From: Bacteroidales bacterium
GTDB lineage: Bacteria > Bacteroidota > Bacteroidia > Bacteroidales > GCA-2748055
Assembly: GCA_023138875.1 (NCBI GenBank)
Contig: JAGLOO010000001.1
Span: forward strand, 1 to 52,167
Reading direction: 5' to 3'
Length of the DNA stretch: 52,167 nt
The translations under genes were made by a program, and so were the position numbers. The notes below the pieces were generated by a model, which was not told where the DNA came from, made no database searches, and was given only the letters and a program-made list of their open reading frames with translations. Positions within the stretch are counted from its first letter, which is position 1, and each line of letters starts with the position of its first letter. This document shows, piece by piece, positions 9,630 to 33,720 of this stretch.

Positions 9630-9965
9630 ATGCACATGGCAAGGGTATATCGCAATGGACAATTAGCCGGTAGATTGATACAGAATAGCCCTGGAAGCTA
9701 TGAATTTCAGTATGATGATGCCTGGTTTTCAAATGACTCGTTGCCTGCTATAAGTCTCACATTGCCAAAGACACAACAGGTGTACAAAGCAGATCATTTG
9801 TTTCCTTTTTTCTTCAATATGCTCTCTGAAGGTATGAACAAAAAACTGCAATGCCGCCAACTGAGAATAGACGAAAAGGATTATTTTGGGCTGTTATTGG
9901 CAACTGCTTCAAATGATACCATTGGAGCTATAACAATTGTACCTGTAAAAAATGAAAATGAATGA
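9630..9965 (+). CDS. hipS: HipS-like antitoxin (stand-alone HipA N-terminal subdomain)
   Basis: A 111-residue protein starting 3 bp after the hipB stop (ATG at 9630; a second ATG at 9636). It matches only the first subdomain of HipA kinases (ARVYRNGQLAGRL, FPFFFNMLSEGMNKKLQ, DYFGLLLATASNDTIGAI). In single-chain HipA this is fused to the kinase; here it is a separate gene whose stop overlaps the kinase start (ATGA at 9962-9965). In the characterised HipBST system the equivalent HipS is the antitoxin. Confidence 0.8.
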   Translation: MHMARVYRNGQLAGRLIQNSPGSYEFQYDDAWFSNDSLPAISLTLPKTQQVYKADHLFPFFFNMLSEGMNKKLQCRQLRIDEKDYFGLLLATASNDTIGAITIVPVKNENE

Positions 9966-20275: not shown

Positions 20276-20686
20276 TTATAAATACTTGCGGTACTCTAAG
20301 GGAAGGTCAAGGTATTTGCTGTACCGTTCGGCATCCGGGCCGAATGCTTCTGCTTTTTTATCCTGGATCTTATATGTGCAGTGTTCACCGATGATGTTTG
20401 AAATATTAATCTCATACTTTTTTCCGCTTTCGTCGGTCATGTGCACTTTCACCAGGTTGGGATTCTCTTCCTTATTCAGTTTGGCATGACAAACCGGACA
20501 GTAAAATTTATACTCTACACCCTCCTGAAGTTTAAATTCGGGATGTGTCTTTTTGGCATAATTGCCTAATTCCGTATCCAGGAAAATGAGCCCCTTCTCA
20601 TTATCAGGCGATTTTGCTGAGAATACAATTGAACTTCCAACGTTCATGTTGCTTCTGCAAATGGGACAATAGTAGTTGTTGGCCAT
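20276..20686 (-). CDS. Zinc-ribbon protein, last gene of hydrogenase operon
   Basis: A 136-residue soluble protein with two CxxC knuckles (Cys7/Cys10 and Cys63/Cys66) forming one zinc ribbon, and a C-terminal half ending in a conserved-looking acidic/aromatic segment (ERYSKYLDLPLEYRKYL). It starts 2 bp after the maturation protease stop, so it is in the same transcript. It could be a metallochaperone or assembly factor for the hydrogenase; this is inferred only from position and metal-binding cysteines. Confidence 0.65.
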   Translation of the reverse strand: MANNYYCPICRSNMNVGSSIVFSAKSPDNEKGLIFLDTELGNYAKKTHPEFKLQEGVEYKFYCPVCHAKLNKEENPNLVKVHMTDESGKKYEINISNIIGEHCTYKIQDKKAEAFGPDAERYSKYLDLPLEYRKYL

Positions 20687-20688
20687 GG

Positions 20689-21138
20689 TTATATGATTTG
20701 ATTTATTTGACGTGTGATCTGATTGGCAGCTTCAAGAACGGGCGGAGATAATTCATCTCCAAATGCCACGTTTTGGGGCTGGATCCCCAGCACATAGGTG
20801 GGGTAGTTAAAAAAATCACCCAGTCGGCCCAGGGAAATATTGTGTGTATTGAATGTGATGTCTTCCACCTTGTCGAGCGTTAGTAAACGAAATGTACCAG
20901 GTTCGGATCCCAGCTCCATGCAATCGATGATTACAATCTCTCCCGGCTTCATGGAATTGATCTTACCGATGTAGTTCTCAATGCTTACTTCAACGGTGAG
21001 TGTGCTGATCTCTGGCCTTTCAACGATATGCCTGCTGATGATCACTCCCACGCCATCATCACTTTTCAATACATTTCCTACCCCGATAAATAACAATCGA
21101 TTGGCCTCTTCAAGTATATCAGTCAAATCCGGAATCAA
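20689..21138 (-). CDS. [NiFe] hydrogenase maturation protease (HycI/HybD family)
   Basis: A 149-residue protein. It has GVGNVLKSDDGVGV (19-32), the carboxylate of which contacts nickel in this family, VIIDC with Asp72, His99 in NTHN, and the family ending GIQPQNVAFGDELSPPV. These proteases remove the C-terminal extension of the large subunit after Ni insertion. The large subunit encoded upstream (27548-28741) indeed carries a 34-residue extension beyond its last Cys motif. It is co-transcribed with the hydrogenase, 3 bp after the ferredoxin-like subunit gene. Confidence 0.9.
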   Translation of the reverse strand: MIPDLTDILEEANRLLFIGVGNVLKSDDGVGVIISRHIVERPEISTLTVEVSIENYIGKINSMKPGEIVIIDCMELGSEPGTFRLLTLDKVEDITFNTHNISLGRLGDFFNYPTYVLGIQPQNVAFGDELSPPVLEAANQITRQINQII

Positions 21139-21141
21139 TGA

Positions 21142-21750
21142 CTAAATATATTTAATAAGTACGGAATGCATGCAATTCGGACAGATGATATTGAACATAT
21201 CCTTTCTTTTCAGCCCGTCTTTGATCTCCAGATCGACATCTTCTTTCCGGGCCAATTGCAATTTTTCATTCAGGAGGTTCAGATTAAGGGTGGAAGCAAA
21301 TGCTTTGGGACCCAGTTTATTGTGCATGTAATGGATATGTTCGTCAGTAGTGATAATGGCATCACAATGTTTACACATGACCAGTTGCTTCTCCTGAGTC
21401 TCAACTAATTTATCCCTTTCAAATACAGCCAGGTCGAAGATTTTGTCTGATAAAACCACGCCTTTACCGGTAATACAATGCTGCTGGCACATGCCGCAAA
21501 ATATACATTTTCCATAATCCCTGGTAATTACCCGCTTCCCAGTCTTTTTATCGTCCTGTATGGTTATTGCGTTGGGAGGACATACATTGGCACAGGTTTC
21601 ACAACCCACGCAATGCTTATCATCCACTTCCGGTTTTCCCCTGAAATTCTCAAACGGGGTATGTGGTTCACCGGGAAACTTTGAAGTAAACGCGGGTGTT
21701 ACCAGTGAAACCACGGCTTCCTTTAACTCTCTGATCTTTGGATACTTCAT
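21142..21750 (-). CDS. Hydrogenase 2x[4Fe-4S] subunit, NuoI/MbhN-like, with extra zinc-type site
   Basis: A 202-residue protein. Two [4Fe-4S] motifs are present: Cys47/50/53/57 (HCVGCETCANVCPPN) and Cys82/85/88/92 (KCIFCGMCQQHC). This is the NuoI/HycF/MbhN peripheral-arm subunit carrying electrons to the small subunit. Unusually, a C-terminal extension (about 110-202) holds two more CxxC pairs (Cys126/129 and Cys190/193), probably a rubredoxin- or zinc-ribbon-like site. It overlaps mrpG by 4 bp. In Pyrococcus Mbh the equivalent gene is likewise placed last among the complex genes. Confidence 0.88.
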   Translation of the reverse strand: MKYPKIRELKEAVVSLVTPAFTSKFPGEPHTPFENFRGKPEVDDKHCVGCETCANVCPPNAITIQDDKKTGKRVITRDYGKCIFCGMCQQHCITGKGVVLSDKIFDLAVFERDKLVETQEKQLVMCKHCDAIITTDEHIHYMHNKLGPKAFASTLNLNLLNEKLQLARKEDVDLEIKDGLKRKDMFNIICPNCMHSVLIKYI

Positions 21751-22064
21751 TTCACAGCATCTTTATAGTCATCCTTAACACTTTTGTCTCCAAGCTTGAC
21801 TCCAAAATGATAGGCCCCTCTCACCAGCGCATGGGCAGCCGCGGTGGCTCCAAAGAACAACAGGGGTATTGCTATGAGAGCCTTAATACCGGCATCCACG
21901 AAACCAAAATGGAACAAAGCCCCCGCCAGGATGCTGCAGGTACCGAGTGTCCCGCATTTTGTGGCAGATTGAAGCCGGTTATATACATCCGGCAACCTGA
22001 TTAATCCGATGCAGCCAATAAGGTTAAAGAGTACTCCAATGGCTATTAGAATAGTACTGACCAT
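21747..22064 (-). CDS. mrpG: MrpG/MnhG-like antiporter subunit
   Basis: A 105-residue, three-helix membrane protein. It has the MrpG/MnhG (MbhC) pattern GCIGLIRLPDVYNRLQSATK followed by a Gly-rich helix and AHALVRGAYHFG. It forms part of the Na+/H+ antiporter module fused in operon with the hydrogenase. One bp separates it from mrpF. Confidence 0.9.
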   Translation of the reverse strand: MVSTILIAIGVLFNLIGCIGLIRLPDVYNRLQSATKCGTLGTCSILAGALFHFGFVDAGIKALIAIPLLFFGATAAAHALVRGAYHFGVKLGDKSVKDDYKDAVK

Positions 22065-22065
22065 G

Positions 22066-22329
22066 TTATTCGTTTAGTTTTTTTCCACTTAAATATTTTG
22101 CAAGGGTGAGCGTTCCGATAAAACTGAGAATGATCCAGGCGATACCTATGTCCAGGATGAAACTTCGCTGTGTTGTTATGGAAAGTATGGCACAGATACC
22201 CACCACAAGAACACCAAATATATCTATTGCCACCATCCGGTCGGCAATCGAGGGACCGCGAATGATCCTGAACAGACAGGAGGCACTCAGTACAATCTGG
22301 ATATAAAGCAGTATTTCGAGTATGTCCAT
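22066..22329 (-). CDS. mrpF: MrpF/MnhF-like antiporter subunit
   Basis: An 87-residue, three-helix protein with the family motif RIIRGPSIADRMVAIDI and a hydrophobic ALSITTQRSFILDIGIAW-like helix. It is equivalent to MbhB. Its ATG overlaps the mrpE stop by 1 bp, indicating coupled translation. Confidence 0.9.
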   Translation of the reverse strand: MDILEILLYIQIVLSASCLFRIIRGPSIADRMVAIDIFGVLVVGICAILSITTQRSFILDIGIAWIILSFIGTLTLAKYLSGKKLNE

Positions 22330-22814
22330 TATTCAAAGGTCTTTTTAATGAATTTTTCAAATCGTCCGGTAATTTGCCGGCTGTATTCAGCCGGATCTTC
22401 ACTTCGAACATAGATCCAGTGTACGTATAGATAGTCATCAATGATGTCTACAGAAATGGTTCCCGGGGTCATGGTGATGGAGTTGGCCAGCATAGTCCTT
22501 GCAAAATCCGATTGTAGTTCCAGCTTCACTTTTACAATTCCCGGTTTAATGGGCATGGCTGGATGAAGCACCCGGTAGGCTACATCAAGATTTGCTTTGA
22601 TGCATTCCCAGATTAAGACCACCAGGTATACAACGAACCAGAAATATCTCACTGGCTGGAGGAATTTATAAACCCTATCAAAAAAGTATCTTGCAAACAG
22701 CAATGATGTGATCACTGCTGCAACCGCTCCAGTAATTAAATTTGCAACCGAAACATCTAAGGTCAGCAGCAACCAGAAAAGAAAAGACAATATAAACAGG
22801 GCCAGGTATCTCAT
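22329..22814 (-). CDS. mrpE: MrpE/MnhE-like antiporter subunit
   Basis: A 161-residue protein: two N-terminal membrane helices (about 3-45), a third near 60-75, and a cytosolic C-terminal domain with the family signature ANSITMTPGTISVDI and YVHWIYV. It is equivalent to MbhA. The start is 1 bp after the mrpD stop. Confidence 0.9.
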   Translation of the reverse strand: MRYLALFILSFLFWLLLTLDVSVANLITGAVAAVITSLLFARYFFDRVYKFLQPVRYFWFVVYLVVLIWECIKANLDVAYRVLHPAMPIKPGIVKVKLELQSDFARTMLANSITMTPGTISVDIIDDYLYVHWIYVRSEDPAEYSRQITGRFEKFIKKTFE

Positions 22815-22815
22815 T

Positions 22816-24354
22816 TTATAATCCCATTATGGTTGTTGAATAAATATCAGATTGCATCAGCACATGGATGGCCGGTCTTAATATCGCATCGTTGATTGAC
22901 GGGAAGGCCAGCAGGCTTAAAGCAAGACAAAGGATGGCCAGGACAACCATGCTGAAAGACATGGAGAAAGGAACTTCCCGGATCTTTTCAATCGATTTTT
23001 GCAGGGGTTTATTGAAGAAAGCGTAGCGCTGGAACTTCAGGAAGTAAGCCAGTGTTATAAAGCTGATCACCACAGCCAGTGTGGCAAGCAGATAAAATTT
23101 CCCGTTGATGGCTGCAATAATAATGATCAGCTTGCTGAAAAAGCCATTGAAAGGAGGGATCCCCGATATGGACATAGATGCCATAAATGAGGTGGAGGAT
23201 GTGACAGGCATGGCCGAGGAGAGACCGCCCATTTTTTTCAGATCACGTGTATCAAGCCTGTACTCCAGTGCCCCGGCATTCAGGAACAGGAGCCCTTTGA
23301 ATACTGCATGGTTGACCATGTGGTAAACACCACCGGCGATGGCCAGTGCTGCTGCCGTATAGTTATCACCCCTCACAAGCAGGATCATACTCATACCAAA
23401 GGCCATTACAACATACCCGATCTGGCTGATGCTTGAATAGGCAAGCAGACGCTTTACATCCCACTGCATGAACGCCAGGAAGGCGCCGATCACCATGGAA
23501 ATGGCTCCCAGTGTGGTGAATACCACGGCAATCTCATGGGTGAATACAAACATGTTGAAGAACAATCGGATCAGGACATAAATACCAACAGCTTTGATCA
23601 GTACCCCTGATAGCATGGCAGAAATGGGAGATGGGGCCGAGGAATGCGCATCAGGCAGCCAGGCATGAAATGGAATGATGGCCGCCTTCAAGCCAAATCC
23701 GGAAATGAGCAGTACCTGTATAAAGATGTAGTAGGGTTTACTGTAACCGGCATCCAGGACATTCCTTACATCGGCTATGTTCAGGGTTTTGGTTTTCCAG
23801 TAGATCAATCCAATGGCCAGCAGGATAAGCATGGAAGCGAGGCCGCCCAACACCTGGTATTTAAACGAAGCTTCAAGCTCCGTTTTGCCCACCCCAAAGG
23901 CCACCAGGGCATAGGACGAGATTACCGAAACCTCCAGGAATACGAACAGGTTGAAAAGGTCTCCACTCAATACCACACCGTTCATTCCGGCAATGATCAG
24001 GCAAAACAGGGCATAGTAATTACTCTCTGCTGTATACTTTCTGATGTATGACAGGGAATAGAACAGGGCAATGAACCCAATCAGGTTGATAATGCAGAGC
24101 ATAAGAACGGAAAATCCATCCAGCACCATATAAATACCCACCGGGTATCCACCTTCAGTACTCCATCCGCCAAGGGTATAATGAATGGATGATTTACCCA
24201 GGCTGGAAAACTCAATGACAGCCATGACGAGCAACGCCAATAATATGAGGGGCGCAAAAAACCTGTGAAATCCCTTCACCAGTTTCCCAAGGATCACGAT
24301 AAGGAAGGCTGAAATCAGCGGTATGGCAACGAACAGGGGGATCAATGTATCCAT
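22816..24354 (-). CDS. mrpD: MrpD/NuoM-like antiporter subunit
   Basis: A 512-residue polytopic membrane protein of the Mrp antiporter/complex I NuoLMN family. The transmembrane-helix-5 carboxylate is present (Glu141 in FLEVSVISSY). The helix-7 lysine motif GFGLKAAIIPFHAWLPDAHS has Lys223. Both are central to proton transfer in this family, so this subunit should be active (MbhH/MrpD role). It lies between mrpC and mrpE as in Mrp operons. Confidence 0.92.
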   Translation of the reverse strand: MDTLIPLFVAIPLISAFLIVILGKLVKGFHRFFAPLILLALLVMAVIEFSSLGKSSIHYTLGGWSTEGGYPVGIYMVLDGFSVLMLCIINLIGFIALFYSLSYIRKYTAESNYYALFCLIIAGMNGVVLSGDLFNLFVFLEVSVISSYALVAFGVGKTELEASFKYQVLGGLASMLILLAIGLIYWKTKTLNIADVRNVLDAGYSKPYYIFIQVLLISGFGLKAAIIPFHAWLPDAHSSAPSPISAMLSGVLIKAVGIYVLIRLFFNMFVFTHEIAVVFTTLGAISMVIGAFLAFMQWDVKRLLAYSSISQIGYVVMAFGMSMILLVRGDNYTAAALAIAGGVYHMVNHAVFKGLLFLNAGALEYRLDTRDLKKMGGLSSAMPVTSSTSFMASMSISGIPPFNGFFSKLIIIIAAINGKFYLLATLAVVISFITLAYFLKFQRYAFFNKPLQKSIEKIREVPFSMSFSMVVLAILCLALSLLAFPSINDAILRPAIHVLMQSDIYSTTIMGL

Positions 24355-24357
24355 CTT

Positions 24358-24696
24358 CTATCCTCTTAAGTTTTTAATTTCTCTAATGTCAAACGTTTTG
24401 TACTTCCGGTACAGCCGTATGGCAATGGCCATCAGCATGGATGTGGTGGCCAGTCCGATCACAATGGCTGTAAGTACCATGGCCTGGGGCAGAGGATCCA
24501 CATAAATCTGTCCGGCCAGATCCGGATCTACGATGGGGGCCAGTCCGCCATCTATATACCCGATGAGTACCAGCATTAGGAAAATGCTGAATTCCATGAT
24601 CGATAGGGCGATGGCGATTTTGATCAGGTTACGCCTGGTGATGACCCCGTAAAGGCCCACCAGGAACAGGACAAAGCATAGGATATAGACTGTCAT
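24358..24696 (-). CDS. mrpC: MrpC/NuoK-like antiporter subunit
   Basis: A 112-residue, three-helix membrane protein of NuoK/MnhC/MbhG type, with GLYGVITRRNLIKIAIALSI and DPLPQAMVLTAIVIGLATTS. It overlaps the mrpB stop by 4 bp and ends 3 bp before mrpD. Confidence 0.92.
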   Translation of the reverse strand: MTVYILCFVLFLVGLYGVITRRNLIKIAIALSIMEFSIFLMLVLIGYIDGGLAPIVDPDLAGQIYVDPLPQAMVLTAIVIGLATTSMLMAIAIRLYRKYKTFDIREIKNLRG

Positions 24697-25130
24697 TTTG
24701 AACTCTCCTCTTTAAAAATTACAAGGGCCAGGAATATGGTGAGGATGGCTGCAGCCACCTCAATGCCAATAAATATATTGTAAAGGGGAATAACTCCGGC
24801 GCTTACCAGTTCCCCGGGTTCTCCTTTCGGGAGATAGTTGAAGAAGAACACCTTGATTCCGAACAACAAAGCCATCAGGGCAAGCAGCAGCACAATAAGT
24901 ATGGCCACACTCTCGACATTGGAAGTACCCGACACCTCCTTTTTCAAATTCAGTGCGCTGCTACCAAAAGCCAGTATAAGCAATATAAATGCTCCTGCAA
25001 CGATGGCACCTCCTGCAAAGCCCCCACCGGGCGTAAGGTGTCCGTGAAGGATGATATAGATGCCATACATGAAAATAATTCCGGCCATCAGTTGGGTTAC
25101 CTTTTTTACAATTGTGGACATTCCTTCCAT
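24693..25130 (-). CDS. mrpB: MrpB/MnhB-like antiporter subunit
   Basis: A 145-residue, four-helix protein carrying the MnhB signature HGHLTPGGGFAGGAIVAGAF (about 28-48). Equivalent to MbhF. Met4 is an alternative start. It follows the DUF4040/MbhDE-like gene by 6 bp. Confidence 0.92.
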   Translation of the reverse strand: MEGMSTIVKKVTQLMAGIIFMYGIYIILHGHLTPGGGFAGGAIVAGAFILLILAFGSSALNLKKEVSGTSNVESVAILIVLLLALMALLFGIKVFFFNYLPKGEPGELVSAGVIPLYNIFIGIEVAAAILTIFLALVIFKEESSK

Positions 25131-25136
25131 AGCACT

Positions 25137-25664
25137 TTATTTTTTTCCTTTCATCCTCAGCAGGGTGAGTACCCCCAGCGCTGCTGTATATAAAATGACT
25201 GCTTCACCCAGGGTATCGTAGGCCCTGAAATCAAACAGAACCCCTGTTACCAGGTTTACACTCCCGGTCTTTTCTACTGCACCATTCACATAGGACTCGG
25301 ACATTCTGAGTGTATGCGACCCCAGCGGATCCAGGTTTCCAATGGCCAATATGAAAAAGTAGAAGAGTGCGGCGAACACAATGAGCCCTGTTACCATGTT
25401 GATGATGGATCTTCTGTCGAAGGTTACTGCAATTTCATCCCTGGTACTATCGAGCACAACAGCAACCATAATGACCAGTGTGATGGTCTCCACGACGATC
25501 TGTACAATGGCCAGGTCGGGTGCCTTCAGAAGCAGGAAACAGATGACCAGACCGTATCCCACGATGCCCATGGCAACCACAGCAGATAATAGATCTTTTG
25601 CATGAAGCGCATAGATGGCTCCGATGATCATAAATCCCAGTATGATGGAAATTGTCAATTCCAT
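25137..25664 (-). CDS. MbhD/MbhE-like subunit (DUF4040; MrpA C-terminal equivalent)
   Basis: A 175-residue membrane protein. The first ~80 residues are DUF4040/MbhD-like (AVVAMGIVGYGLVICFLLLK, APDLAIVQIVVETIT). The C-terminal half ends in the MbhE/MrpB-N motif NLVTGVLFDFRAYDTLGEAV. In Mrp antiporters these domains are the C-terminal part of MrpA, and in Pyrococcus Mbh they are two genes; here they form one separate polypeptide. It lies between the large NuoL-like gene and mrpB. Confidence 0.88.
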   Translation of the reverse strand: MELTISIILGFMIIGAIYALHAKDLLSAVVAMGIVGYGLVICFLLLKAPDLAIVQIVVETITLVIMVAVVLDSTRDEIAVTFDRRSIINMVTGLIVFAALFYFFILAIGNLDPLGSHTLRMSESYVNGAVEKTGSVNLVTGVLFDFRAYDTLGEAVILYTAALGVLTLLRMKGKK

Positions 25665-25675
25665 ATTTGATCAAA

Positions 25676-27538
25676 TTAGGTTATCAGCAAAAGCAATAGG
25701 ATGACCAGACCCGCAAAGACCCACAATGCATAATCATGCAATACACCGGAGTGAGCCCTGCTGAATAATCTGCCAACCCATGAACAGAAACGCCTGGAAA
25801 GATCGTACAGATCAAACCATTTATCCTTTGCCTTCCGGTACATGAAGGCAAGCCATTTGAATTCCTGGATACTCTTGTAAAATTCAAGTGTGGGATATGA
25901 GGTCTCTTCCTGCATTTTTTCACCTCCCACAAAACTGTCTGATGTGCGGAAGTTCTTTATGTTCCCGACCAGGTAGATCAGGATACCCAGGGCAATGGAC
26001 ACCAATACCAGTACACCTACCGTTGATGAGGCCCAGAGGCCCGTGTACTCAAAGGTGCCGGAGACAGGCATGAACAGTTTTGGCACCACGACGTTGCTTG
26101 AAAATACCCCAAAGCCAATACATGCCAGTGCCAGTAATAGCATGGGAACCCACATCACCGGAGATACTTCTTTCACGCCCGCAAGTTCCTTCCTCTGGCG
26201 TCCAAGGAAAATTCCTCCCGCGAATTTGATGAAGCTGGCCAGGGTTAATGCAGAGCCAAGCACGGCAAGTCCAAGCCAGACGATCCAGAGTTTATTGGCG
26301 ATCCCTGCTCCCTGGCCGAAATCAATGATGCCCTGGTAGATCATCCATTTTGATGCAAAACCATTGAACGGCGGGATCCCGGAAATGGAGAGAGCAAATA
26401 TAAGTGCTGCAAGGAAGGTTATAGGCATGGCCCGGGATAACCCGCCAAGATCCTCCATCTCATCTTTTCCGGTTTGCTGTTCCACCGCTCCGGCAGCAAG
26501 GAACAATCCTCCTTTATAGATGGCGTTGTTGATCATGTGGAAAAGGCCAGCTGCGATCCCGATCAGGGATCCAAGTCCAAATCCAACGATCATGTAACCC
26601 ACCTGGGAAACTGCGTGAAAGCCCAGTAGTCGCTTGTAATTGTGCTGCACCAGGGCCATCATTACAGCCGAGATAATGGTGATCACCCCAATGGTCAGGA
26701 GAATGAACCTCATCCATTCACCCATGGTAAAGAGCTGGGTAGTGATCCTTGCAAGGAAATAAATGCCCAGGAGCTTATCAAGAGATGCCGGCAAGTATGC
26801 CGAGGAGGTGGCCGGAGCCGTTTCAGCATAATCCGGGACCCACGTGTGAAATGGGAAGGCGCCCGCTTTGGTAAAACTTCCAATGATCAGCGCCAGAAAC
26901 GCAATCACCCTTACCGCATCACTTGTATGCAAAGCTATTTCATCCATATTCAGTGTGCCGGAGATTCTCCAGATCAGTGCGATTCCCAGGATCATGATCC
27001 CGTCAGATGCACCTATGATTATCAGGGTCTTTTTTGCAGCAGCGCTGCTGGCTTCATCATGTCCGCGTATTAGTTTGTACAGCGTTAATCCAAGAATACC
27101 CCAGCAGATCAGAAATAGCAGCAGATTATTGGCCAGGACAGCACCGAATGAAAAACCCAGTGTGATCAGGAAGTATGCATAATAATTACGCATGTTTATC
27201 ACAGTCTTATACAGCGTTGAATAAACCGCAACAAGAAGCGATAACAGACTGACAAATACGACGATCAGTTTACTGAGGTTGTCGATTGAAAATGAACTGT
27301 ATTTAACAGCATTGGCATATGCATCCATTTCCGGAGCCAGTATGCCCGTTGCTTCTACCCAGTCTCCCAGAGTGAAAACCAGGGGATCAACACTGAATAA
27401 TGCGATGGCCAGGTAGCTGCAAAACAAGGTTACAACGATTGCGATGATGCCCTTGATGATCCTGAGGCTGGGGGGTAGTAAAAAAAGCAACAGCCCGATC
27501 AATATAGGGAATGCGATGATATTTATTGCCTGGGTCAT
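25676..27538 (-). CDS. NuoL/MrpA-N-like antiporter subunit with C-terminal extension
   Basis: A 620-residue polytopic protein of the NuoL/MrpA/MbhH family and the second large antiporter subunit in the operon. Helix 7 retains lysine (Lys224 in SFTKAGAFPFHTWVPDYAET). At the helix-5 position where the family has W-E, it reads CWGILGLTLY, so the key glutamate appears replaced by Gly147. After residue 540 an amphipathic stretch (EFKWLAFMYRKAKDKWFDLY) and a final transmembrane helix recall the NuoL lateral helix or MbhI anchor. No separate mbhI gene is present, so this tail may take that role. Confidence 0.88.
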   Translation of the reverse strand: MTQAINIIAFPILIGLLLFLLPPSLRIIKGIIAIVVTLFCSYLAIALFSVDPLVFTLGDWVEATGILAPEMDAYANAVKYSSFSIDNLSKLIVVFVSLLSLLVAVYSTLYKTVINMRNYYAYFLITLGFSFGAVLANNLLLFLICWGILGLTLYKLIRGHDEASSAAAKKTLIIIGASDGIMILGIALIWRISGTLNMDEIALHTSDAVRVIAFLALIIGSFTKAGAFPFHTWVPDYAETAPATSSAYLPASLDKLLGIYFLARITTQLFTMGEWMRFILLTIGVITIISAVMMALVQHNYKRLLGFHAVSQVGYMIVGFGLGSLIGIAAGLFHMINNAIYKGGLFLAAGAVEQQTGKDEMEDLGGLSRAMPITFLAALIFALSISGIPPFNGFASKWMIYQGIIDFGQGAGIANKLWIVWLGLAVLGSALTLASFIKFAGGIFLGRQRKELAGVKEVSPVMWVPMLLLALACIGFGVFSSNVVVPKLFMPVSGTFEYTGLWASSTVGVLVLVSIALGILIYLVGNIKNFRTSDSFVGGEKMQEETSYPTLEFYKSIQEFKWLAFMYRKAKDKWFDLYDLSRRFCSWVGRLFSRAHSGVLHDYALWVFAGLVILLLLLIT

Positions 27539-27547
27539 TGTGGTAGG

Positions 27548-28741
27548 TTATACATTTTTTAGCAACCGGTTTGTAATTTGCGTGGAATGTTCAATGATCT
27601 CTTTAGCGTTCATGATCCGTTTGCCACTGTTTCTGTCCAGGGCAACAGCCAGCCGCTCGGTACAGCAATAGCAGGGATCTACTGCAGCCAGTGATATGGT
27701 GGCATCAGAGATGCTCTGTCCCACGCATGACTTTTTAAAAGTGGATATGTTGGTATAACTGGGAGCCCTGATTTTATGGCGTACAGGAGAGTTGGATCCG
27801 TCGGAAACGACAAAATGGAAGACTTCACCCCTGGGCGCCTCGGCACGGCCGAGCCCATAACCCTCCGGGATGTGTTTAACCTTCACATCGATATCCCCTT
27901 CTTTTTCCTTTTTCAATCCATCAAGGCATTGTTCAATGATGGAGATGGATTCATACATCTCCAGCAGCCGTACTTCGGCTTTGGCAAATACATCCCCCGC
28001 CTGTGCTGTGATCACTTTCCAGTTCACCATCGGATAGGCGGCATACGGATCATCCCTTCGCACATCAACATCCACCCCTGAGGCCCTGGCAGTGGGACCC
28101 ACTGCAGCAAAATGGAGAATATCTTCTTTTGTAAGCACCCCCACTCCTTTTGTACGGGCATGAATAACAGGATCATCCATTACTGCTCCCACCAGCAGGT
28201 CTGTTTTTTTCTTGACCAGCGAAAGTACCTCTTCAATGGCGGGTATTTTGTTGTTCTCAATATCCCTGCGAACACCTCCTATCTTGAACATGGCGTAGCT
28301 GTTCCTGTTCCCGCTGATCATTTCAAACAGGTCCAGTACCGGCTCCCTGTATTTCCAGGCCCACATGAATACGGTGTTGTAGCCCAGGAAATGACCTGCC
28401 AGCCCCACCCAGAGAAGGTGGCTGTGTATTCTTTCCAGTTCTCCGATGATGGACCTGATGTATTTGGCCCTGTTGGTGATTTCCACATTCCCGATCTCTT
28501 CCACGCTGTTGGCAAATGCGAATGGATGGGAAGTAGAGCATATCCCACAGACCCTCTCCACCAGGAAAAACACCTCGTCGTAACTCTTTTTTTCGCTTAG
28601 TTTTTCTATGCCCCTGTGGTTGTACCCCGTTTCCCACTTCACATCTTTTACAATCTCACCGTCACAGTATAATTTAAACAGTTCGGGTTCTTCCTGCAGG
28701 GGATGATAGGGACCTATCGGTATCAACGTCTGTTTGCTCAT
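27548..28741 (-). CDS. Group 4 [NiFe] hydrogenase large (catalytic) subunit
   Basis: A 397-residue protein of NuoD/EchE/MbhL type. Both nickel-binding motifs are intact: Cys65 and Cys68 in RVCGICSTSHP, and Cys357 and Cys360 in DPCYCCTER. This separates it from NuoD and from Mbx-type enzymes, which lack the complete set. A 34-residue tail follows Arg363 and is the probable substrate of the maturation protease encoded in the same operon. The enzyme should reduce protons or oxidise H2 on the cytoplasmic side of the membrane. It overlaps the NuoC-like gene by 4 bp. Confidence 0.95.
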   Translation of the reverse strand: MSKQTLIPIGPYHPLQEEPELFKLYCDGEIVKDVKWETGYNHRGIEKLSEKKSYDEVFFLVERVCGICSTSHPFAFANSVEEIGNVEITNRAKYIRSIIGELERIHSHLLWVGLAGHFLGYNTVFMWAWKYREPVLDLFEMISGNRNSYAMFKIGGVRRDIENNKIPAIEEVLSLVKKKTDLLVGAVMDDPVIHARTKGVGVLTKEDILHFAAVGPTARASGVDVDVRRDDPYAAYPMVNWKVITAQAGDVFAKAEVRLLEMYESISIIEQCLDGLKKEKEGDIDVKVKHIPEGYGLGRAEAPRGEVFHFVVSDGSNSPVRHKIRAPSYTNISTFKKSCVGQSISDATISLAAVDPCYCCTERLAVALDRNSGKRIMNAKEIIEHSTQITNRLLKNV

Positions 28742-29184
28742 TTTTTTGTCTCCCCGTTTGATTTAAAAGTTTTCCTGTAGGGATAGACACCCTTTGCCCA
28801 GTTTCCTTCAGAGAGTAATTGATCCAGATTGGGATGGTTGAGAAAATCAATACCGAACAGCTCATGCATTTCCCTTTCAATCCAGTTGGTTGCCTCAAAC
28901 ATGTTGGAAAGGGATTCCACTTCAGGCTTCTTACTATCGAGGATCAAATGAAGGTTTAAAATGAGCCCGGGTTTATCAAGGCTGAAATGGTAATAGATCT
29001 CAAATCCTTTTCTGGTGTGAAGTGCAGAAGCAATAATAAAACGAAAACCCAGTGTTTTATAGAGATGTTCAGCCATGGACACAAGCGCCGCCGGGTTGAT
29101 GGTGATCGTTACCCTGCGGTCATTTTTGATGACCGTATCCCGGATCTCATTCGTAAACTTGCCTTTCAATTCGTCAATGACCAT
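28738..29184 (-). CDS. Hydrogenase NuoC/MbhK-like 30-kDa-type subunit
   Basis: A 148-residue soluble subunit. The C-terminal signature FEATNWIEREMHELFGIDFL with HPNLDQLL matches the complex I 30-kDa (NuoC)/EchD/MbhK family. It is structural, binding between small and large subunits, and carries no cofactor. It sits between the small- and large-subunit genes, overlapping the latter by 4 bp. Confidence 0.92.
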   Translation of the reverse strand: MVIDELKGKFTNEIRDTVIKNDRRVTITINPAALVSMAEHLYKTLGFRFIIASALHTRKGFEIYYHFSLDKPGLILNLHLILDSKKPEVESLSNMFEATNWIEREMHELFGIDFLNHPNLDQLLSEGNWAKGVYPYRKTFKSNGETKK

Positions 29185-29189
29185 ATTAA

Positions 29190-29603
29190 TCAGATTTTGC
29201 CAAGAAGTTTAACAATGCCGGCCAGGATGGCTTCGGGTTTAGGGGGACAACCAGGAATATATGCATCTACAGGAATGATCTTGTCGACCGGTCCGGCAAA
29301 TGTGTTTCCTTCAGCAAAAATACCCCCCGTACAGCCACAGGCGCCAATGGCCACCACAACAACAGGCTTGGATGCCTGCTCGTAGATCTCCAGCAGCCTG
29401 GGTTTGTCCTTTTTATTGATGGACCCGTTCACAAGGAGCACATCGGCATGCCTGACGCTACCTACCAGCACCATACCGAATCGCTCCACATCATATTTAG
29501 GTGTCAGGCAATCCAATATCTCAATATCACAATTGTTGCATGATGCCCCTCCAAAATGGAAAAGCCAGAGTGATTTTTTGAAACAGTAACTTTTAAAGCT
29601 CAC
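29190..29603 (-). CDS. Group 4 [NiFe] hydrogenase small subunit (NuoB/MbhJ-like)
   Basis: No ATG is usable, because the frame is open upstream only inside the NuoH-like gene; GTG at 29603 gives 137 residues and leaves 11 bp after the upstream stop. Cys22 and Cys25 (GGASCNNC), Cys89 (GACGCTGG) and Cys119 (PGCPPKPE) bind the single proximal [4Fe-4S] cluster typical of NuoB/EchC/MbhJ. The length is normal for group 4 enzymes, which lack the extra clusters of respiratory uptake hydrogenases. It passes electrons from the NuoI-like subunit to the Ni-Fe site. Confidence 0.92.
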   Translation of the reverse strand: MSFKSYCFKKSLWLFHFGGASCNNCDIEILDCLTPKYDVERFGMVLVGSVRHADVLLVNGSINKKDKPRLLEIYEQASKPVVVVAIGACGCTGGIFAEGNTFAGPVDKIIPVDAYIPGCPPKPEAILAGIVKLLGKI

Positions 29604-29614
29604 GGTTTTATATT

Positions 29615-30547
29615 TTATAAACCAAAGATTGCAAGTACAATGGCGATGACCGCTAAGAGATTCATCCAGATGAAGAAGAAGCGAATGGCCTGCTTGATCT
29701 TTACCCTGGGATTTGTGTTCCGTATTAAAGTGAGTAAAAGCACAACGGCAACCAATTTCAACACGGCCCACAATATATTGATCCCTTCCAGCGTAAAACC
29801 CTTCATAAGGATGGCTACGATGAACGCAGGAAGGATAAAGAGCGACATGTATTTCGACAGCTTGATCATGGCATAGGGCGTACCCGAATACTCAATGAAT
29901 ATCCCGCCACAAATCTCGGTTTCAGCTTCAGGCATGTCAAAGGGAACCATTGCCAGTTTTGCCTGCAGGCAGAATATGGCTACAATGAACAGAAGCACTC
30001 CTGATAAACTACCTATAAATGGTGTGCCGGCTTGCTGGACCTGGATGATCTGGTACAGGTTAATGCTCTGTCCCGATTTAATGATGACCCCGGCCATTAC
30101 CAGCAGGAAGGTGAGCTCATAGCTCATGATCAATTTCATCTCGCGGGATCCCCCCACGGCTGCCAGGGGATTACCTGAGGCCAGAGCCCCCATCACATAG
30201 CTTAGAGACGGAATGGTAAGCAGGTAGAATATTACGATCAGGTCTCCTTGAAAACCCGTGGTGATGTTCATCAGAGGGAGCAGAATGAAGACACCTGCCA
30301 TGGTTGCCCCGAATACCGCAAATATGGGAGCAGCCAGGAAGAGCCCCTTTGCTCCCCGGGCAGGAAGAATGGTCTCCTTCACAAGCAGAAGTTTGAAAAA
30401 ATCATAAAATGGCTGTAGCAGGGGTGGCCCTTTGCGAAACTGAACTCCGGCCGTTATTTTTCGGTCAAACCAGGAAAGAAATGCACCGATGACCGCTGCA
30501 AAAAGGAAACCGGGATAAATGAGAAAATAAAACAAGTACGTTCCCAT
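29615..30547 (-). CDS. NuoH/MbhM-like membrane subunit
   Basis: A 310-residue, about eight-helix membrane protein of the NuoH/EchB/HycD/MbhM family. It has DRKITAGVQFRKGPPLLQPF near the N-terminus and the conserved loop MVPFDMPEAETEICGGIFIE followed by YSG. It links the peripheral hydrogenase arm to the antiporter modules and is essential for coupling in the family. It follows the ferredoxin-like gene by 10 bp. Confidence 0.93.
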   Translation of the reverse strand: MGTYLFYFLIYPGFLFAAVIGAFLSWFDRKITAGVQFRKGPPLLQPFYDFFKLLLVKETILPARGAKGLFLAAPIFAVFGATMAGVFILLPLMNITTGFQGDLIVIFYLLTIPSLSYVMGALASGNPLAAVGGSREMKLIMSYELTFLLVMAGVIIKSGQSINLYQIIQVQQAGTPFIGSLSGVLLFIVAIFCLQAKLAMVPFDMPEAETEICGGIFIEYSGTPYAMIKLSKYMSLFILPAFIVAILMKGFTLEGINILWAVLKLVAVVLLLTLIRNTNPRVKIKQAIRFFFIWMNLLAVIAIVLAIFGL

Positions 30548-30557
30548 AACGATAGGT

Positions 30558-31055
30558 TTACATGTTGTCTGTTTTCCACATGCGCTCCTTGACGAGAATG
30601 TGGTCGTTCAGTTTGAAAATATTCTGTTCTGGATCCTCCTCCATATCAACCAGTTGTACGGCTCCTTCAGGCGAGTTCCTGATAAACAGGTCCAGTTCCT
30701 TTTTATCTCTCAGATCGTAATAATTCTCTTTGTCCCTGTGGTATTCGAAAAAATCTGTCATCATGGTTCCGAATGGACAGATGACCACACACGACTTGCA
30801 GGAGATGCAGAGATTTGTAGAACGGTCGATGATCCCATCCTCATTCTTTTCAAGTGCATCGGCCGGACAAACGCTGATACAGGGTGCATCGGTGCACCTT
30901 CTGCAGGTGAATTGAAAAACGGCCATTTCCCTGATGCTCTTTAATCCATGCGAGTCGATAAAAGGGCCATAGAGCCCTTCAGGCGGAGATTCATCACAGC
31001 TTTTCCCCTGCGGAGATCTGATTTTTTCGAGATCAATTAGGATCTTTTGTGCCAT
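30558..31055 (-). CDS. Polyferredoxin-like electron-transfer subunit (HycB/CooF type)
   Basis: A 165-residue protein with two [4Fe-4S] motifs: Cys51/54/59/63 (CRRCTDAPCISVC) and Cys83/86/89/93 (CISCKSCVVIC). The C-x2-C-x4-C-x3-C spacing of the first is typical of HycB/DmsB-type ferredoxins. It probably relays electrons between the AsrAB-like module encoded just upstream and the hydrogenase arm. Spacing to neighbours is 2 and 10 bp. Confidence 0.88.
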   Translation of the reverse strand: MAQKILIDLEKIRSPQGKSCDESPPEGLYGPFIDSHGLKSIREMAVFQFTCRRCTDAPCISVCPADALEKNEDGIIDRSTNLCISCKSCVVICPFGTMMTDFFEYHRDKENYYDLRDKKELDLFIRNSPEGAVQLVDMEEDPEQNIFKLNDHILVKERMWKTDNM

Positions 31056-31057
31056 GT

Positions 31058-31882
31058 TTAATTCCAGATATGGGGTTGATCTTTTATTTCATCATAGGTA
31101 AATACGGGACCATCTTTGCAAACAAGGTATTTGCCCATCATACAATGGCCGCATTTACCCAGTCCGCACGACATATTTTTTTCCATGGACAGGTATACAT
31201 TATGTTCAGGGTATCCCATTTCAAGCAGCTTCATGGTCCCGAACTTCATCATGATGGGTGGTCCGCAAACCACTGCCAAAGAGTTTTTTATATCCATGTT
31301 TACATTATCCAGCAATACGGTGACAACACCTACTCTTTCTGACCAGTTACCGTCGGCCTGGTCCACACTGCGAAGCACTTCGAATTTGGGGGTCTCACGT
31401 AATTCCTGGATATAGGGCTTAAAAATACAATCCTCGGGGGTTTTCGACCCATAACAAAGGGTGACTTTTCTCAACTTATCCGAGATGGCGATCAGGTTGT
31501 ACAGCAACGAACGAATGGGGGCAAAGCCACATCCTCCACCCAGGATCAGGACCTCCTTATCATAGAATTTTTCTATCGGGTATCCCCGGCCAAAAGGCCC
31601 CCTGATCCCCATTTTTTCTCCGGGTTGCATGCTGTGCATATGGTCTGTCACATAACCCGTCTTCATCACTGTGATTTCAAGCTGACCGGTTTCAAGGGGT
31701 GAGGAGGAAGGAGTGAATGGTGCTTCGCCCATACCATCGATGGTCACTTCAATGAACTGTCCTGTAGCAAATGAGAACTCTTCTTCGGGAACAAGGACAA
31801 AGGTTTTAATAAGCGGAGATTCATCGATAACCTTTGTCAATTCGAATTTCAGGGGTTTGTATAGATTTCCATTCATACCCAT
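31058..31882 (-). CDS. FAD/NAD(P)H and [2Fe-2S] subunit (AsrB / sulfhydrogenase HydG-like)
   Basis: A 274-residue ferredoxin-NADP+-reductase-fold protein. It has an FAD-binding barrel (APFTPSSSP, 54-62), an NAD(P)-binding Rossmann motif (VLILGGGCGFAPIRSLL, about 111-127), CGPP (206-209) and a C-terminal [2Fe-2S] site (Cys239, 244, 247, 255). This is the arrangement of anaerobic sulfite reductase AsrB, dihydroorotate dehydrogenase PyrK and archaeal sulfhydrogenase gamma subunit HydG. In this operon it is the likely entry or exit point for NAD(P)H electrons. Nucleotide preference cannot be read confidently. Confidence 0.88.
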   Translation of the reverse strand: MGMNGNLYKPLKFELTKVIDESPLIKTFVLVPEEEFSFATGQFIEVTIDGMGEAPFTPSSSPLETGQLEITVMKTGYVTDHMHSMQPGEKMGIRGPFGRGYPIEKFYDKEVLILGGGCGFAPIRSLLYNLIAISDKLRKVTLCYGSKTPEDCIFKPYIQELRETPKFEVLRSVDQADGNWSERVGVVTVLLDNVNMDIKNSLAVVCGPPIMMKFGTMKLLEMGYPEHNVYLSMEKNMSCGLGKCGHCMMGKYLVCKDGPVFTYDEIKDQPHIWN

Positions 31883-31888
31883 GGGTGA

Positions 31889-32884
31889 TTATTTTGATAA
31901 CTCAAGAATCAATTCATTCTTGTTGATCTGACCGATACATGTCTCAATGCAACGGCCGCATCCTGTACACGCTTTCAATTGATACTTCTCAGGTTTCCAC
32001 ACATATTTGCACATATACCGGTTCCTGAATCTTTCAGGCAATTCATTCAGTGCATCCTCACCACCGGCCACACGTTCGAAACCCGGGTACTGGCAGGTAT
32101 CCAGCTGCCTTACCTTTTCAAATCCGGGCTTGTCGATAAGCAGGAAACAGGAGCAGGTGGGACATATGGCACTGCAGGCTCCACACGACACACATGTGGA
32201 AGCGTATTTTTTCCATGACTCCATCCCGTTTGCAGAGATCAGCTTTCCCGTCTCTTCATAACCGGGCAAACCTTTGTTCTGTTCCTTTAATTGCTCAAGA
32301 ACGGAGCTGTGCATTTCACCGAGGGACTGCATCAATCCCTTTTCAGGTTCCACGGTAACTATTATTCCCAATGATTGGATAAACGCCTCACCTTTTGGAC
32401 CATGGACCGTGAGGATCACCTGATCCTCTATCACTGCCAGAGAGATATCCGAATGGTCATTGCCTGTGGGGTCTATGCCATAGCTGGTACAATGGCAATG
32501 TTCCCGGATGCTCAAACAATCGGTTGAAATAATGGTCGTGTTTTCACGTCTTTGCCTGTATGCCGGATCGGTGTATTCCTGGTCAAGATATATTTCATCA
32601 AGGAAGGCCAGGGCCATGACATCGCAATTGGGTGTTCCGATGATTGCCACGGGATTTCCGGGTGCTGCGATTGATGTTACATTTTCCTTTACCGGGAGAA
32701 AAAACTTTTTCAGGGGTGTAACCGGTTTGGGTTTGTTGTAAACAATTTCCGTGACTGTATCGGCCTCCAGTTTTACATAGTCACAGCTAAAATCGTTTTC
32801 CAGCGGGGCATAGATTTCATGAGATGATAAGCTCTGTATTAACTTTTCATCCCATTCCTGCTTCGGAATCGAGATACTGTTCAT
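31889..32884 (-). CDS. Dicluster Fe-S subunit (AsrA / sulfhydrogenase HydB-like)
   Basis: A 331-residue protein, first gene of the hydrogenase operon. The last third carries two [4Fe-4S] motifs: Cys231/234/237/241 (STCVSCGACSAICPTC) and Cys306/309/312/316 (KACTGCGRCIETC), with additional Cys244, 264 and 292. The N-terminal domain contains the family-like IIGTPNCDVMALAFLDEIY. It pairs with the adjacent AsrB/HydG-like flavoprotein (6 bp apart) exactly as in asrAB and hydBG operons. No siroheme sulfite reductase (AsrC) gene follows; instead the pair is joined to a membrane hydrogenase. Confidence 0.88.
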   Translation of the reverse strand: MNSISIPKQEWDEKLIQSLSSHEIYAPLENDFSCDYVKLEADTVTEIVYNKPKPVTPLKKFFLPVKENVTSIAAPGNPVAIIGTPNCDVMALAFLDEIYLDQEYTDPAYRQRRENTTIISTDCLSIREHCHCTSYGIDPTGNDHSDISLAVIEDQVILTVHGPKGEAFIQSLGIIVTVEPEKGLMQSLGEMHSSVLEQLKEQNKGLPGYEETGKLISANGMESWKKYASTCVSCGACSAICPTCSCFLLIDKPGFEKVRQLDTCQYPGFERVAGGEDALNELPERFRNRYMCKYVWKPEKYQLKACTGCGRCIETCIGQINKNELILELSK

Positions 32885-32907
32885 TTTATGTGAAAAATAT
32901 AACTATA

Positions 32908-32991
32908 AAAATATGCCGGACCTCGATATCAGTCAAGGTGTATCGGGGGAGTATGTGCTGTAAAACATATAATGAAAAACGTAAACAGCAA
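32908..32991 (-). promoter_or_regulatory. Candidate promoter region of hydrogenase operon
   Basis: Two minus-strand possibilities are visible. One is TTG (32991-32989), a 19-bp spacer and TATGTTTT (32969-32962), close to the Bacteroidota consensus. The other is a sigma70-looking TTGACT (32936-32931), 17 bp, TATTTT (32913-32908). A Rex half-site-like TGTGAAAAAT lies at about 32889-32898 next to the start codon. I cannot choose between them from sequence alone. Confidence 0.3.
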
Positions 32992-33039
32992 TTAAACAGA
33001 GTATTAGAAATTTATTCTTATCAGTTAAAAATTTGCATC

Positions 33040-33069
33040 TTTGATAAAAATATATACAGAATAATTTTT
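33040..33069 (+). promoter_or_regulatory. Candidate rex promoter
   Basis: TTTG (33040-33043), an 18-bp spacer and TAATTTTT (33062-33069) fit the -33/-7 pattern with one mismatch. Transcription would begin at or next to the GTG at 33073, giving a leaderless or nearly leaderless mRNA. Confidence 0.45.
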
Positions 33070-33070
33070 A

Positions 33071-33088
33071 TTGTGAAAAAAAACACAA
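33071..33088. promoter_or_regulatory. Rex operator (ROP) over the rex start codon
   Basis: TTGTGAAAAAAAACACAA has perfect outer arms TTGTG/CACAA in the 18-bp spacing of the Rex consensus TTGTGAAnnnnTTCACAA (two inner mismatches in the right arm). The GTG start of rex lies inside the left arm, so bound Rex would cover its own start of transcription and translation. Confidence 0.7.
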
Positions 33089-33720
33089 AATGCCCCCTAA
33101 AGAAAAGCCTTAGAAGGATCCTGTTATACAGGGGAAGCCTCCTCAGGTTGCAGGCACTGGGAGTGAAGTCGGTTTACTCTTATACACTTGGAAAAGAAAC
33201 AGGTGTCTCTGCAGAACAGGTAAGGAAAGATTTCTCGGAGTACCAAATTAAAGGCAATCAAAGGGGGGGGTATTATGTGGAAGAATTGATCAATGAAATG
33301 GGCAGGATATTTTTCCAGGGCGGAAATAAGAATATCATTGTTGTGGGTCGGGGGAATATCGGATCCTCATTGACAAATTATGATAAGTTTGTACAGCGCC
33401 AAATTAACATTGTTGCCTCCTTTGATATTGACCCATCCAAACAGCGCAGCCGGTCTGAGATACCGGTATACGGAATGGAAAGGCTCGGTGAAATTATTAA
33501 ACGGTTCACGGTAAGAGCCGCCATCATTGCTGTTCCGGAGATGGCTGCACAGTTGGTGTGCGATCAGCTTGTTGGTTTTGGGATAGAAGGTATCATCAAT
33601 TTCGCTCCGGTTATTCTGAAAGTTCCCGATGACATCATTGTGAACAATGTAAACCTGAGCGATGAGATTGAAAGTGTGATCTACTGTGTGACACGAGAAA
33701 CAGAAAATGAACGCCATTGA
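33073..33720 (+). CDS. rex: Redox-sensing transcriptional repressor Rex
   Basis: A 215-residue protein. The only start giving normal Rex length is GTG at 33073; the ATG at 33090 is out of frame. The N-terminal winged helix (LLRLQALGVKSVYSYTLGKE, GVSAEQVRKDFSEY) precedes the glycine turn (GNQRGGYYVEELI). The Rossmann domain has VVGRGNIGSSL, a variant of GAGNLG, and D-x-D near 125 (FDIDPS). Rex releases DNA when NADH rises. It is divergent from the hydrogenase operon, so it likely represses that operon and itself. The stop is 33 bp from the convergent phosphotriesterase-like gene. Confidence 0.9.
   Translation: MKKNTKCPLKKSLRRILLYRGSLLRLQALGVKSVYSYTLGKETGVSAEQVRKDFSEYQIKGNQRGGYYVEELINEMGRIFFQGGNKNIIVVGRGNIGSSLTNYDKFVQRQINIVASFDIDPSKQRSRSEIPVYGMERLGEIIKRFTVRAAIIAVPEMAAQLVCDQLVGFGIEGIINFAPVILKVPDDIIVNNVNLSDEIESVIYCVTRETENERH

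Follow-up and report, generated by a model that had tools for sequence, protein, structure and literature searches.

The stretch of DNA analysed here, called the window below, comprises 52,167 nucleotides of contig JAGLOO010000001.1 from a Bacteroidales bacterium (assembly GCA_023138875.1; genome 4.79 Mb, 99.6% complete). Between positions 20276 and 32884 it carries a cluster of 18 genes, all on the minus strand, which appear to specify a [NiFe] hydrogenase combined with an Mrp-type antiporter and with a putative NAD(P)H module. An earlier note, made from the sequence alone, had described 18 tightly packed genes running in one direction. All of them are present, with a spacing of -4 to +11 bases, and scans of the operon proteins against Pfam and NCBIfam returned the identities that had been read from the sequence. 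The extent given at that time, 20276-33720, stands for the cluster except at its promoter end, which lies at 32884, position 33720 being the end of a divergent rex gene. From the promoter end, the operon opens with genes for an AsrA/HydB-like protein, an AsrB/HydG-like protein and a ferredoxin-like protein, followed by NuoH-, NuoB- and NuoC-like subunits, the [NiFe] large subunit and a large antiporter-like subunit, D1. It continues on the same strand with MbhDE, MrpB, MrpC, the MrpD-like subunit D2, MrpE, MrpF, MrpG, a NuoI/HycF-like subunit, a HycI-type protease and a small protein with four conserved cysteines, here called the Cys4 protein (Table 1).

Table 1. Genes and regulatory sites of the hydrogenase locus, from the Cys4 gene at the operon end to rex, in promoter-to-end order for the operon (positions in the window; aa, amino acids; ORF, open reading frame)
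Feature	Position	Strand	Evidence
AsrA/HydB-like Fe-S protein, 331 aa, 16 conserved Cys	31889..32884	-	Fer4_22 80 bits; 9nez_B 110 bits
AsrB/HydG-like flavin/NAD(P)/[2Fe-2S] protein, 274 aa	31058..31882	-	NAD_binding_1, FAD_binding_6, DHODB_Fe-S_bind
HycB/CooF-type ferredoxin-like subunit, two 4Fe-4S motifs	30558..31055	-	Fer4 families
NuoH/MbhM-like membrane subunit	29615..30547	-	PF00146 213 bits
NuoB/MbhJ-like small subunit, probable start GTG 29603	29190..29603	-	PF01058 112 bits
NuoC/MbhK-like subunit	28738..29184	-	PF00329 84 bits
[NiFe] hydrogenase large subunit, ERVCGICS ... DPCYCC plus C-terminal extension	27548..28741	-	PF00346, PF00374
Large antiporter-like subunit D1 (MrpA-N like), 620 aa	25676..27538	-	PF00361 200 bits
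MbhD/MbhE-like (MrpA C-terminal part)	25137..25664	-	PF13244, PF20501
MrpB-like	24693..25130	-	PF04039
MrpC/NuoK-like	24358..24696	-	PF00420
MrpD-like antiporter subunit D2	22816..24354	-	PF00361 223 bits
MrpE-like	22329..22814	-	PF01899 157 bits
MrpF-like	22066..22329	-	PF04066
MrpG-like	21747..22064	-	PF03334
NuoI/HycF-like 2x[4Fe-4S] subunit with extra CxxC...CxxC	21142..21750	-	Fer4_7
HycI-type maturation protease, TTG start in ORF list	20689..21138	-	PF01750 33 bits; TIGR00072 84 bits, above cut-off; TIGR00142 HycI 89.5 bits, below cut-off
Small conserved Cys4 protein	20276..20686	-	C7, C10, C63, C66 kept in 45/45
rex, NADH/NAD+-sensing repressor, divergent	33073..33720	+	PRK05472 Rex 205 bits, above cut-off
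Rex box 1, TTGTGAAAAAAAACACAA, overlapping the probable rex start	33071..33088		11/12 palindrome positions, best in window
Rex box 2, degenerate, before the asrA-like start	32888..32905		9/12 in window

The four nickel ligands of the large subunit (C65, C68, C357 and C360), which the earlier note had already recognised, are intact in all 81 sequences aligned; this and the other cysteine counts leave out matches over less than 60% of the query as well as any sequence in which more than five residues are unknown. The strongest matches of this subunit in the PDB are MbhL (290 bits) and HycE (272 bits), the 49 kDa subunit of complex I reaching about 200 bits or less, and the complex I-related membrane subunits that characterise group 4 are present in NuoH-, NuoL/M/N- and NuoK-like form. 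In a tree of 31 large-subunit rows the family forms one clade (100/99) with its homologue from a genome of another class (G677), apart from both the NuoD rows and the Ech-like rows, in keeping with a group 4 identity; long branches were flagged in this tree, in which the position of the family relative to HycE, MbhL and the locus L136 is not settled. We assign the large subunit to group 4 of the [NiFe] hydrogenases, and subgroup 4g might be suggested by extension from PMC8542988. Locus L136 itself (G135:C10), from the same order, encodes another group 4 hydrogenase, with a large subunit 46% identical, three antiporter-like subunits and no AsrAB-like genes. Two further loci (L141, L142) contain small Ech-like hydrogenase sets whose large subunit stops at DPCLSCTAR and has no C-terminal extension.

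In the NuoB-like subunit C21 (alignment numbering) is found in 76 of 77 sequences, and C24, C88 and C118 in all 77. The NuoI-like subunit, correctly recognised as such in the earlier note, has HycF of formate hydrogenlyase as its top PDB match (88 bits), ahead of MbhN (37 bits); twelve of its cysteines are kept in all of the 58-60 sequences with a residue at those positions, and the C-terminal CxxC...CxxC is likewise conserved. Homologues of all Mrp subunits from A to G are encoded in the operon, MrpB to MrpG by Pfam type and the parts of MrpA as MbhD/E together with D1. The structural model of D1 (mean predicted local distance difference test score, pLDDT, 83) has MrpA (7qru_A) as its top Foldseek match, the C-terminal 90 residues being too poorly modelled to support a lateral helix. 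The genome encodes HypD, and its only [NiFe] large subunit by PF00346/PF00374 is that of the operon.

The two proteins encoded at the promoter end resemble the electron-input subunits of a different class of hydrogenase. The top PDB match of the AsrB-like protein is the gamma subunit of sulfhydrogenase 1 (9nez_C, 171 bits; runner-up 66 bits), and its [2Fe-2S] ligands C239, C244, C247 and C255 are kept in 69 of 69 sequences. For the AsrA-like protein the beta subunit of the same enzyme (9nez_B) is the only PDB match. Sixteen of its 17 cysteines are conserved, 15 of them in 66/66 aligned sequences and C87 in 65/66, and these sixteen align with cysteines of sulfhydrogenase 1 beta; its earlier description as a dicluster Fe-S protein was right as to the iron-sulfur character but too narrow. 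FAD and NAD(P) domains, a C-terminal [2Fe-2S] site and a 16-cysteine partner, the features of a HydBG-type NAD(P)H module, are all found. The PDB matches of the AsrA-like protein, the AsrB-like protein and the large subunit therefore identify the NAD(P)H module as group 3b-type and the core as group 4-type.

The AsrA-like protein scores 137, 120 and 118 bits against the NCBIfam models for ShyB, AsrA and HydB, every one under its cut-off. The AsrA and AsrB equivalog cut-offs (TIGR02910 and TIGR02911) are not reached (119.5 versus 323.15 and 206 versus 288.6 bits), and neither are those for the sulfhydrogenase proteins HydB/HydG and ShyB/ShyC (118-177 versus 600-750 bits), so the AsrAB-like pair is to be seen as a homologous module rather than as a member of the sulfhydrogenase family. 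The third protein of this group, the ferredoxin-like subunit, keeps eight cysteines in 71 of 71 sequences. The genome as a whole gives one strong and three weak matches to AsrB. The linkage of the complex to NAD(P)H, as first proposed, is supported by the homology to sulfhydrogenase 1 gamma and beta and, indirectly, by the Rex boxes described below.

A scan with the large subunit over one genome per species (84,980 species) found 256 relatives; the analysis kept the 80 best, which are 77-92% identical and come, by their titles, from Bacteroidota throughout. Many of these loci are cut by contig ends, and upstream genes were tallied in 57 loci (23 of the 80, in which less than 6.5 kb precedes the large subunit, being excluded) and downstream genes in 55 (25 excluded, with less than 9 kb downstream). 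In 56 of the 57 loci with at least 6.5 kb upstream, asrA, asrB and the ferredoxin gene are all present upstream in the same order. Downstream, MrpB, MrpC, MrpE, MrpF, MrpG and NuoI are found in 54 of 55 loci and the protease in 53; matches to D2 below 45% identity were set aside as cross-hits of D1, and the D2 tally (55/55) was not used. Among the genes found in the 80 related loci there was not a single violation of gene order or strand. Two of the genomes, those of Labilibacter sediminis CG51 (L100) and Marinilabiliaceae bacterium JC017 (L109), are apparently from cultured organisms, and both carry the operon from asrA to hycI. Some variation occurs within the operon: in 24 of the 70 loci where both asrB and the ferredoxin gene were found, a gene for a protein with a cyclic-nucleotide-binding domain lies between them. 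The inserted protein (for example in L041 and L067) has about 155 residues, and the one that was scanned showed no other Pfam domain; it may be a regulatory subunit. At L135 (G272:C87) the operon is interrupted between NuoB and NuoH by open reading frames of 1195, 310 and 118 residues.

The same association was followed from the side of AsrA, which was searched for in near relatives and in the order, the phylum set being searched with the large subunit. Among 41 near relatives the large subunit is found at E<1e-100 in ten and AsrA in nine, all inside those ten, with both genes on a single contig in eight of the nine. At the same threshold, 21 of 393 genomes of the order have the large subunit and 20 have AsrA, all 20 inside those 21. 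The one genome with the large subunit and no strong AsrA (G037) has only 2.96 kb of contig ahead of the large subunit, too short for asrA, and both genes share a contig in 19 of the 20, the exception being G139, where each gene lies 1-2 kb from the end of a separate contig. A Fisher test of this co-occurrence gives p 1e-32, a figure that ignores the kinship of the genomes and is only a guide because they are related. By the earlier note's own criterion, its reading would fail if related genomes mostly had the AsrAB-like pair apart from the hydrogenase, and this is not the case: AsrA at E<1e-100 without the large subunit occurs in none of the 393. Weaker AsrA-like matches (E 1e-20 to 1e-32) exist in 43 further genomes of the order, apart from this hydrogenase; all seven of these loci that were inspected are hdr-flx-like clusters, five of them adjoining NuoA-N-type genes without nickel ligands, which marks the weak matches as a distinct set.

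Across 395 genomes of the phylum the large subunit was found at E<1e-75 in two, the genome studied here and G677. In the latter the order from asrA to NuoI is kept although identities have fallen to 34% for AsrA, 51% for AsrB and 58% for the large subunit, so the association must be old; rex, the protease and the Cys4 gene were not found beside the operon there. The identical order in related loci and in G677 rules out an assembly artefact or contig join. Judged by this linkage, the AsrAB-like pair is a genuine part of the hydrogenase operon and no chance neighbour, as the composite complex of the earlier note presupposed.

A divergent rex gene lies beside the operon in 48 of the 57 loci. In the window its listed open reading frame (32824-33720) is over-long, and the in-frame start that fits the relatives is GTG 33073, which lies within Rex box 1 and is probably the true start. 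Although the ATG that follows Rex box 1 is not in frame, a suspected frame break in rex was discounted: L033 and L035 have the same frame, and L034 reads through that GTG. Rex boxes were counted in the 54 loci where both genes were found and, for the second box, in the 64 loci with at least 130 bases ahead of asrA, with first-order Markov samples as shuffles. The best intergenic match scores at least 10/12 in 52 of 54 related loci (mean 10.9, compared with 8.2 for shuffles). A second box just before the asrA start is perfect (10/10) in 40 of 64 loci and in none of 6400 shuffles, and reaches at least 8/10 in 51 of 64 loci as against 5% of shuffles, the close relatives L033-L036 scoring 8/10. 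These promoter boxes place the operon in a putative Rex regulon, with Rex binding and NADH-dependent derepression to be expected. Elsewhere in the genome studied here a Rex-like box is found 54 bases ahead of genes resembling those of the [FeFe] hydrogenase HydABC, and on contig C21 [FeFe] hydrogenase genes are followed by another rex-like gene (L150:15757-16380). The relevant passages of a study of Caldithrix give a Rex consensus and argue that a Rex-controlled hydrogenase, being expressed at high NADH/NAD+, evolves H2 (PMC5317091); by analogy, the same logic may carry over to this operon.

The gene content, the ligand residues, the linkage of the pair to the hydrogenase and the Rex-like boxes, all directly observed, suggest that the operon probably encodes an NAD(P)H:H+ oxidoreductase that translocates ions and mainly evolves H2, with a group 3b-type NAD(P)H module mounted on an Mrp-linked group 4 core, and that is induced at high NADH. 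From the sequences we infer the assembly of the complex, its cofactor (NADH or NADPH), its direction, its ion and its stoichiometry. Electrons from NAD(P)H would pass through the FAD and [2Fe-2S] centre of the AsrB-like protein and the Fe-S clusters of the AsrA-like protein to the ferredoxin-like subunit, and from there through the NuoI/HycF-like subunit and the NuoB-like cluster to the NiFe site, where protons would be reduced to H2, while the NuoH- and NuoC-like subunits and the Mrp-type subunits would couple this electron flow to Na+/H+ movement. The standard potential of NAD(P)H is about -0.32 V and that of H2 is -0.41 V, or about -0.30 V at 10 Pa. Because these potentials are close, the complex is likely to be reversible and ion flow could set its direction: at low H2, NAD(P)H might be disposed of at little ion cost, and at higher H2 the ion gradient would be spent in driving electrons onto protons. 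Derepression of Rex targets at high NADH/NAD+ makes disposal of NADH as H2 the likely main direction.

Several observations weigh against this proposal of an NADH-induced, H2-evolving complex. In nine of the 57 loci, including L100 and L109, the sequence beside the operon yielded no rex, and the same is true of G677. The second Rex box of the window is itself degenerate, and a genome-wide pattern allowing one mismatch gives 15 sites compared with 11 for a reversed control, so that lone sites elsewhere, including the box before the HydABC-like set, are weak and at most suggestive. At a single locus, L107, the core occurs with no AsrAB-like pair, though most Mrp genes are missing there too and the sequence is broken by stretches of unknown bases. 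The job could already be done by Rnf and by the HydABC-like [FeFe] hydrogenases that the genome studied here also encodes.

The complex might instead work mainly as an H2-oxidising enzyme, delivering electrons to NAD(P)+ with outward ion pumping and so yielding reductant and some energy. At high H2 the transfer of electrons from H2 to NAD(P)+ is energetically favourable, and relatives in group 3b that have this module are listed as physiologically reversible in the relevant part of PMC5037454; the Rex boxes, which predict expression once NADH is already high, speak against such a role, and we regard it as unlikely. More doubtful again is a complex fed chiefly by ferredoxin in the manner of Mbh, evolving H2 and pumping ions, with the AsrAB-like pair as a side branch to NAD(P)H or as a means of making NAD(P)H from ferredoxin. 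The operon does have two ferredoxin-type subunits, and ferredoxin is the donor of the known Mrp-linked group 4d enzymes and the presumed donor of group 4g (PMC5037454, in its passages on these groups), but the AsrAB-like pair is found in the operon as regularly as the core and the genome already has Rnf to deal with ferredoxin. Some ferredoxin contribution would nevertheless be compatible with the preferred reading, NAD(P)H-driven H2 evolution: Nfn-like genes, recognised by reading the sequences, are present along with those for Rnf and HydABC-like enzymes, so the cell can shuttle electrons between carriers and there is room for it.

Electron confurcation, in which ferredoxin and NAD(P)H are used jointly in the fashion of HydABC, had been raised in the earlier note and does have input subunits of both kinds in its favour. 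It is not indicated, because only one flavoprotein is encoded: among the 18 proteins scanned, the flavin/NAD domain pair occurs only in the AsrB-like protein, with no second flavin, NuoF-like or NfnB-like domain, and it was rejected as the principal explanation on this ground. Ion coupling would also make confurcation unnecessary, and HydABC-like enzymes are seemingly already in the genome; we consider it very improbable. It is scarcely credible that the AsrAB-like pair is an independent enzyme, feeding for example a sulfite or sulfur reductase, and merely a neighbour of the hydrogenase. AsrA and AsrB take their names from sulfite reductase, and distant relatives do occur elsewhere in hdr-flx-like clusters; against this, the pair scores under the AsrA and AsrB equivalog cut-offs, and its linkage to the hydrogenase is near-absolute and old, and an independent sulfite-reductase role was rejected on the linkage counts given above. 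No AsrC-like protein was found among the 20 window proteins scanned, a genome-wide search for AsrC not having been made.

How anaerobes convert NAD(P)H to H2 is a central question for syntrophy and for H2 cycling in gut and sediment. The reaction is uphill unless H2 is very low, and the well-known routes are confurcating [FeFe] hydrogenases and Rnf combined with a ferredoxin-dependent hydrogenase. An operon that recurs in Bacteroidales, for the most part next to rex, and in which an ion-coupled hydrogenase is apparently connected directly with an NAD(P)H module would offer a third. It is tempting to go further and to see in it a hydrogen-evolving analogue of complex I, with a sulfhydrogenase-type HydBG module in place of NuoEFG, maintained in a stable and mostly Rex-linked Bacteroidales lineage and allowing fermenters to push electrons from NAD(P)H onto protons by means of an ion gradient, without ferredoxin; on this wider view we are almost evenly divided, with doubt slightly the stronger.

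Two minor features of the window may be recorded here. The Cys4 gene at the operon end is kept in 43 of the 55 loci tallied downstream, and the AlphaFold model of its product (pLDDT 76) had no Foldseek match at E <= 0.001. At 9630-10969, two open reading frames resemble a HipA-type kinase pair, recognised by eye alone.

Parts of the proposed complex have clear counterparts in characterised enzymes. The membrane-bound hydrogenase MBH (6cfw), of HydDB type 4d, has the core subunits and the Mrp-type module in common with it, and MbhL tops the PDB matches of the large subunit; the operon described here differs in that its large antiporter subunits number two and its NuoI is HycF-like, and MBH is not known to contain a flavoprotein. 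Sulfhydrogenase 1 (9nez), of group 3b, shares the NAD(P)H module, its gamma subunit corresponding to the AsrB-like and its beta subunit to the AsrA-like protein, but is soluble and has a catalytic core of group 3. Both of these structures are from Pyrococcus furiosus. Formate hydrogenlyase of Escherichia coli (7z0s), whose electron donor is formate dehydrogenase, is related through HycE and through HycF; unlike the present operon, the annotated hyc genes of E. coli include no MrpB-G-like gene.

Distant AsrA- and AsrB-like relatives also occur in HdrABC-Flx-like clusters of other Bacteroidales (L128-L132), near a NuoA-N type complex, but these differ from the operon in that their NuoD has no nickel-binding CxxC and the partners are Hdr proteins. 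Read by eye, these five loci have hdrC-hdrB-hdrA-like genes, a gene for an MvhD-like protein of about 150 residues and AsrA-like genes with one AsrB-like gene beside NuoA-N complex I sets. NuoEFG did not appear in the sequences examined, most of which end inside nuo genes, and an alternative input to complex I is possible. Two other loci (L139, L140) have the hdr/AsrAB-like gene group without Nuo genes alongside. The Hdr, Mvh and Flx names used for all these genes are provisional and rest on reading the sequences.

Mrp-linked group 4 enzymes are also on record from uncultured anaerobes. HydDB treats group 4d as ferredoxin-coupled and Mrp-linked and group 4g as putatively ferredoxin-coupled (relevant part of PMC5037454). 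Mrp-linked 4g enzymes of Cloacimonadota and Omnitrophota, likewise of Mbh kind, are read as ferredoxin-fed, and the passages of PMC8542988 that deal with them mention no AsrAB-like module. Nor does the combination of AsrAB, Mrp and a group 4 hydrogenase appear in the pertinent parts of PMC7082340, PMC7382037 and PMC10823672. Searches of open-licence PMC papers brought up asrB, Mrp and a NiFe hydrogenase together in one paper, PMC6349859. That report (2019), the closest precedent for the operon, describes, in the portion concerned with Saganbacteria RX5A, a single region with a group 4 [NiFe] hydrogenase, Mrp antiporter-like genes, cooF, asrA and asrB together with a molybdopterin oxidoreductase, a region called enigmatic and proposed to be an oxidoreductase module. 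The novelty of the combination, which the earlier note had left open, is thus limited: it is not wholly new, a closely similar set having been reported earlier in another phylum without a tested function. Compared by the published description alone, the two have in common the group 4 [NiFe], Mrp antiporter-like, cooF-, asrA- and asrB-like genes; the Saganbacteria region has in addition the molybdopterin oxidoreductase, which is unclassified, no molybdopterin protein being found among the 20 window proteins scanned, and Rex control and conservation are not discussed in that portion of the paper. The Bacteroidales operon is recurrent and mostly Rex-linked.

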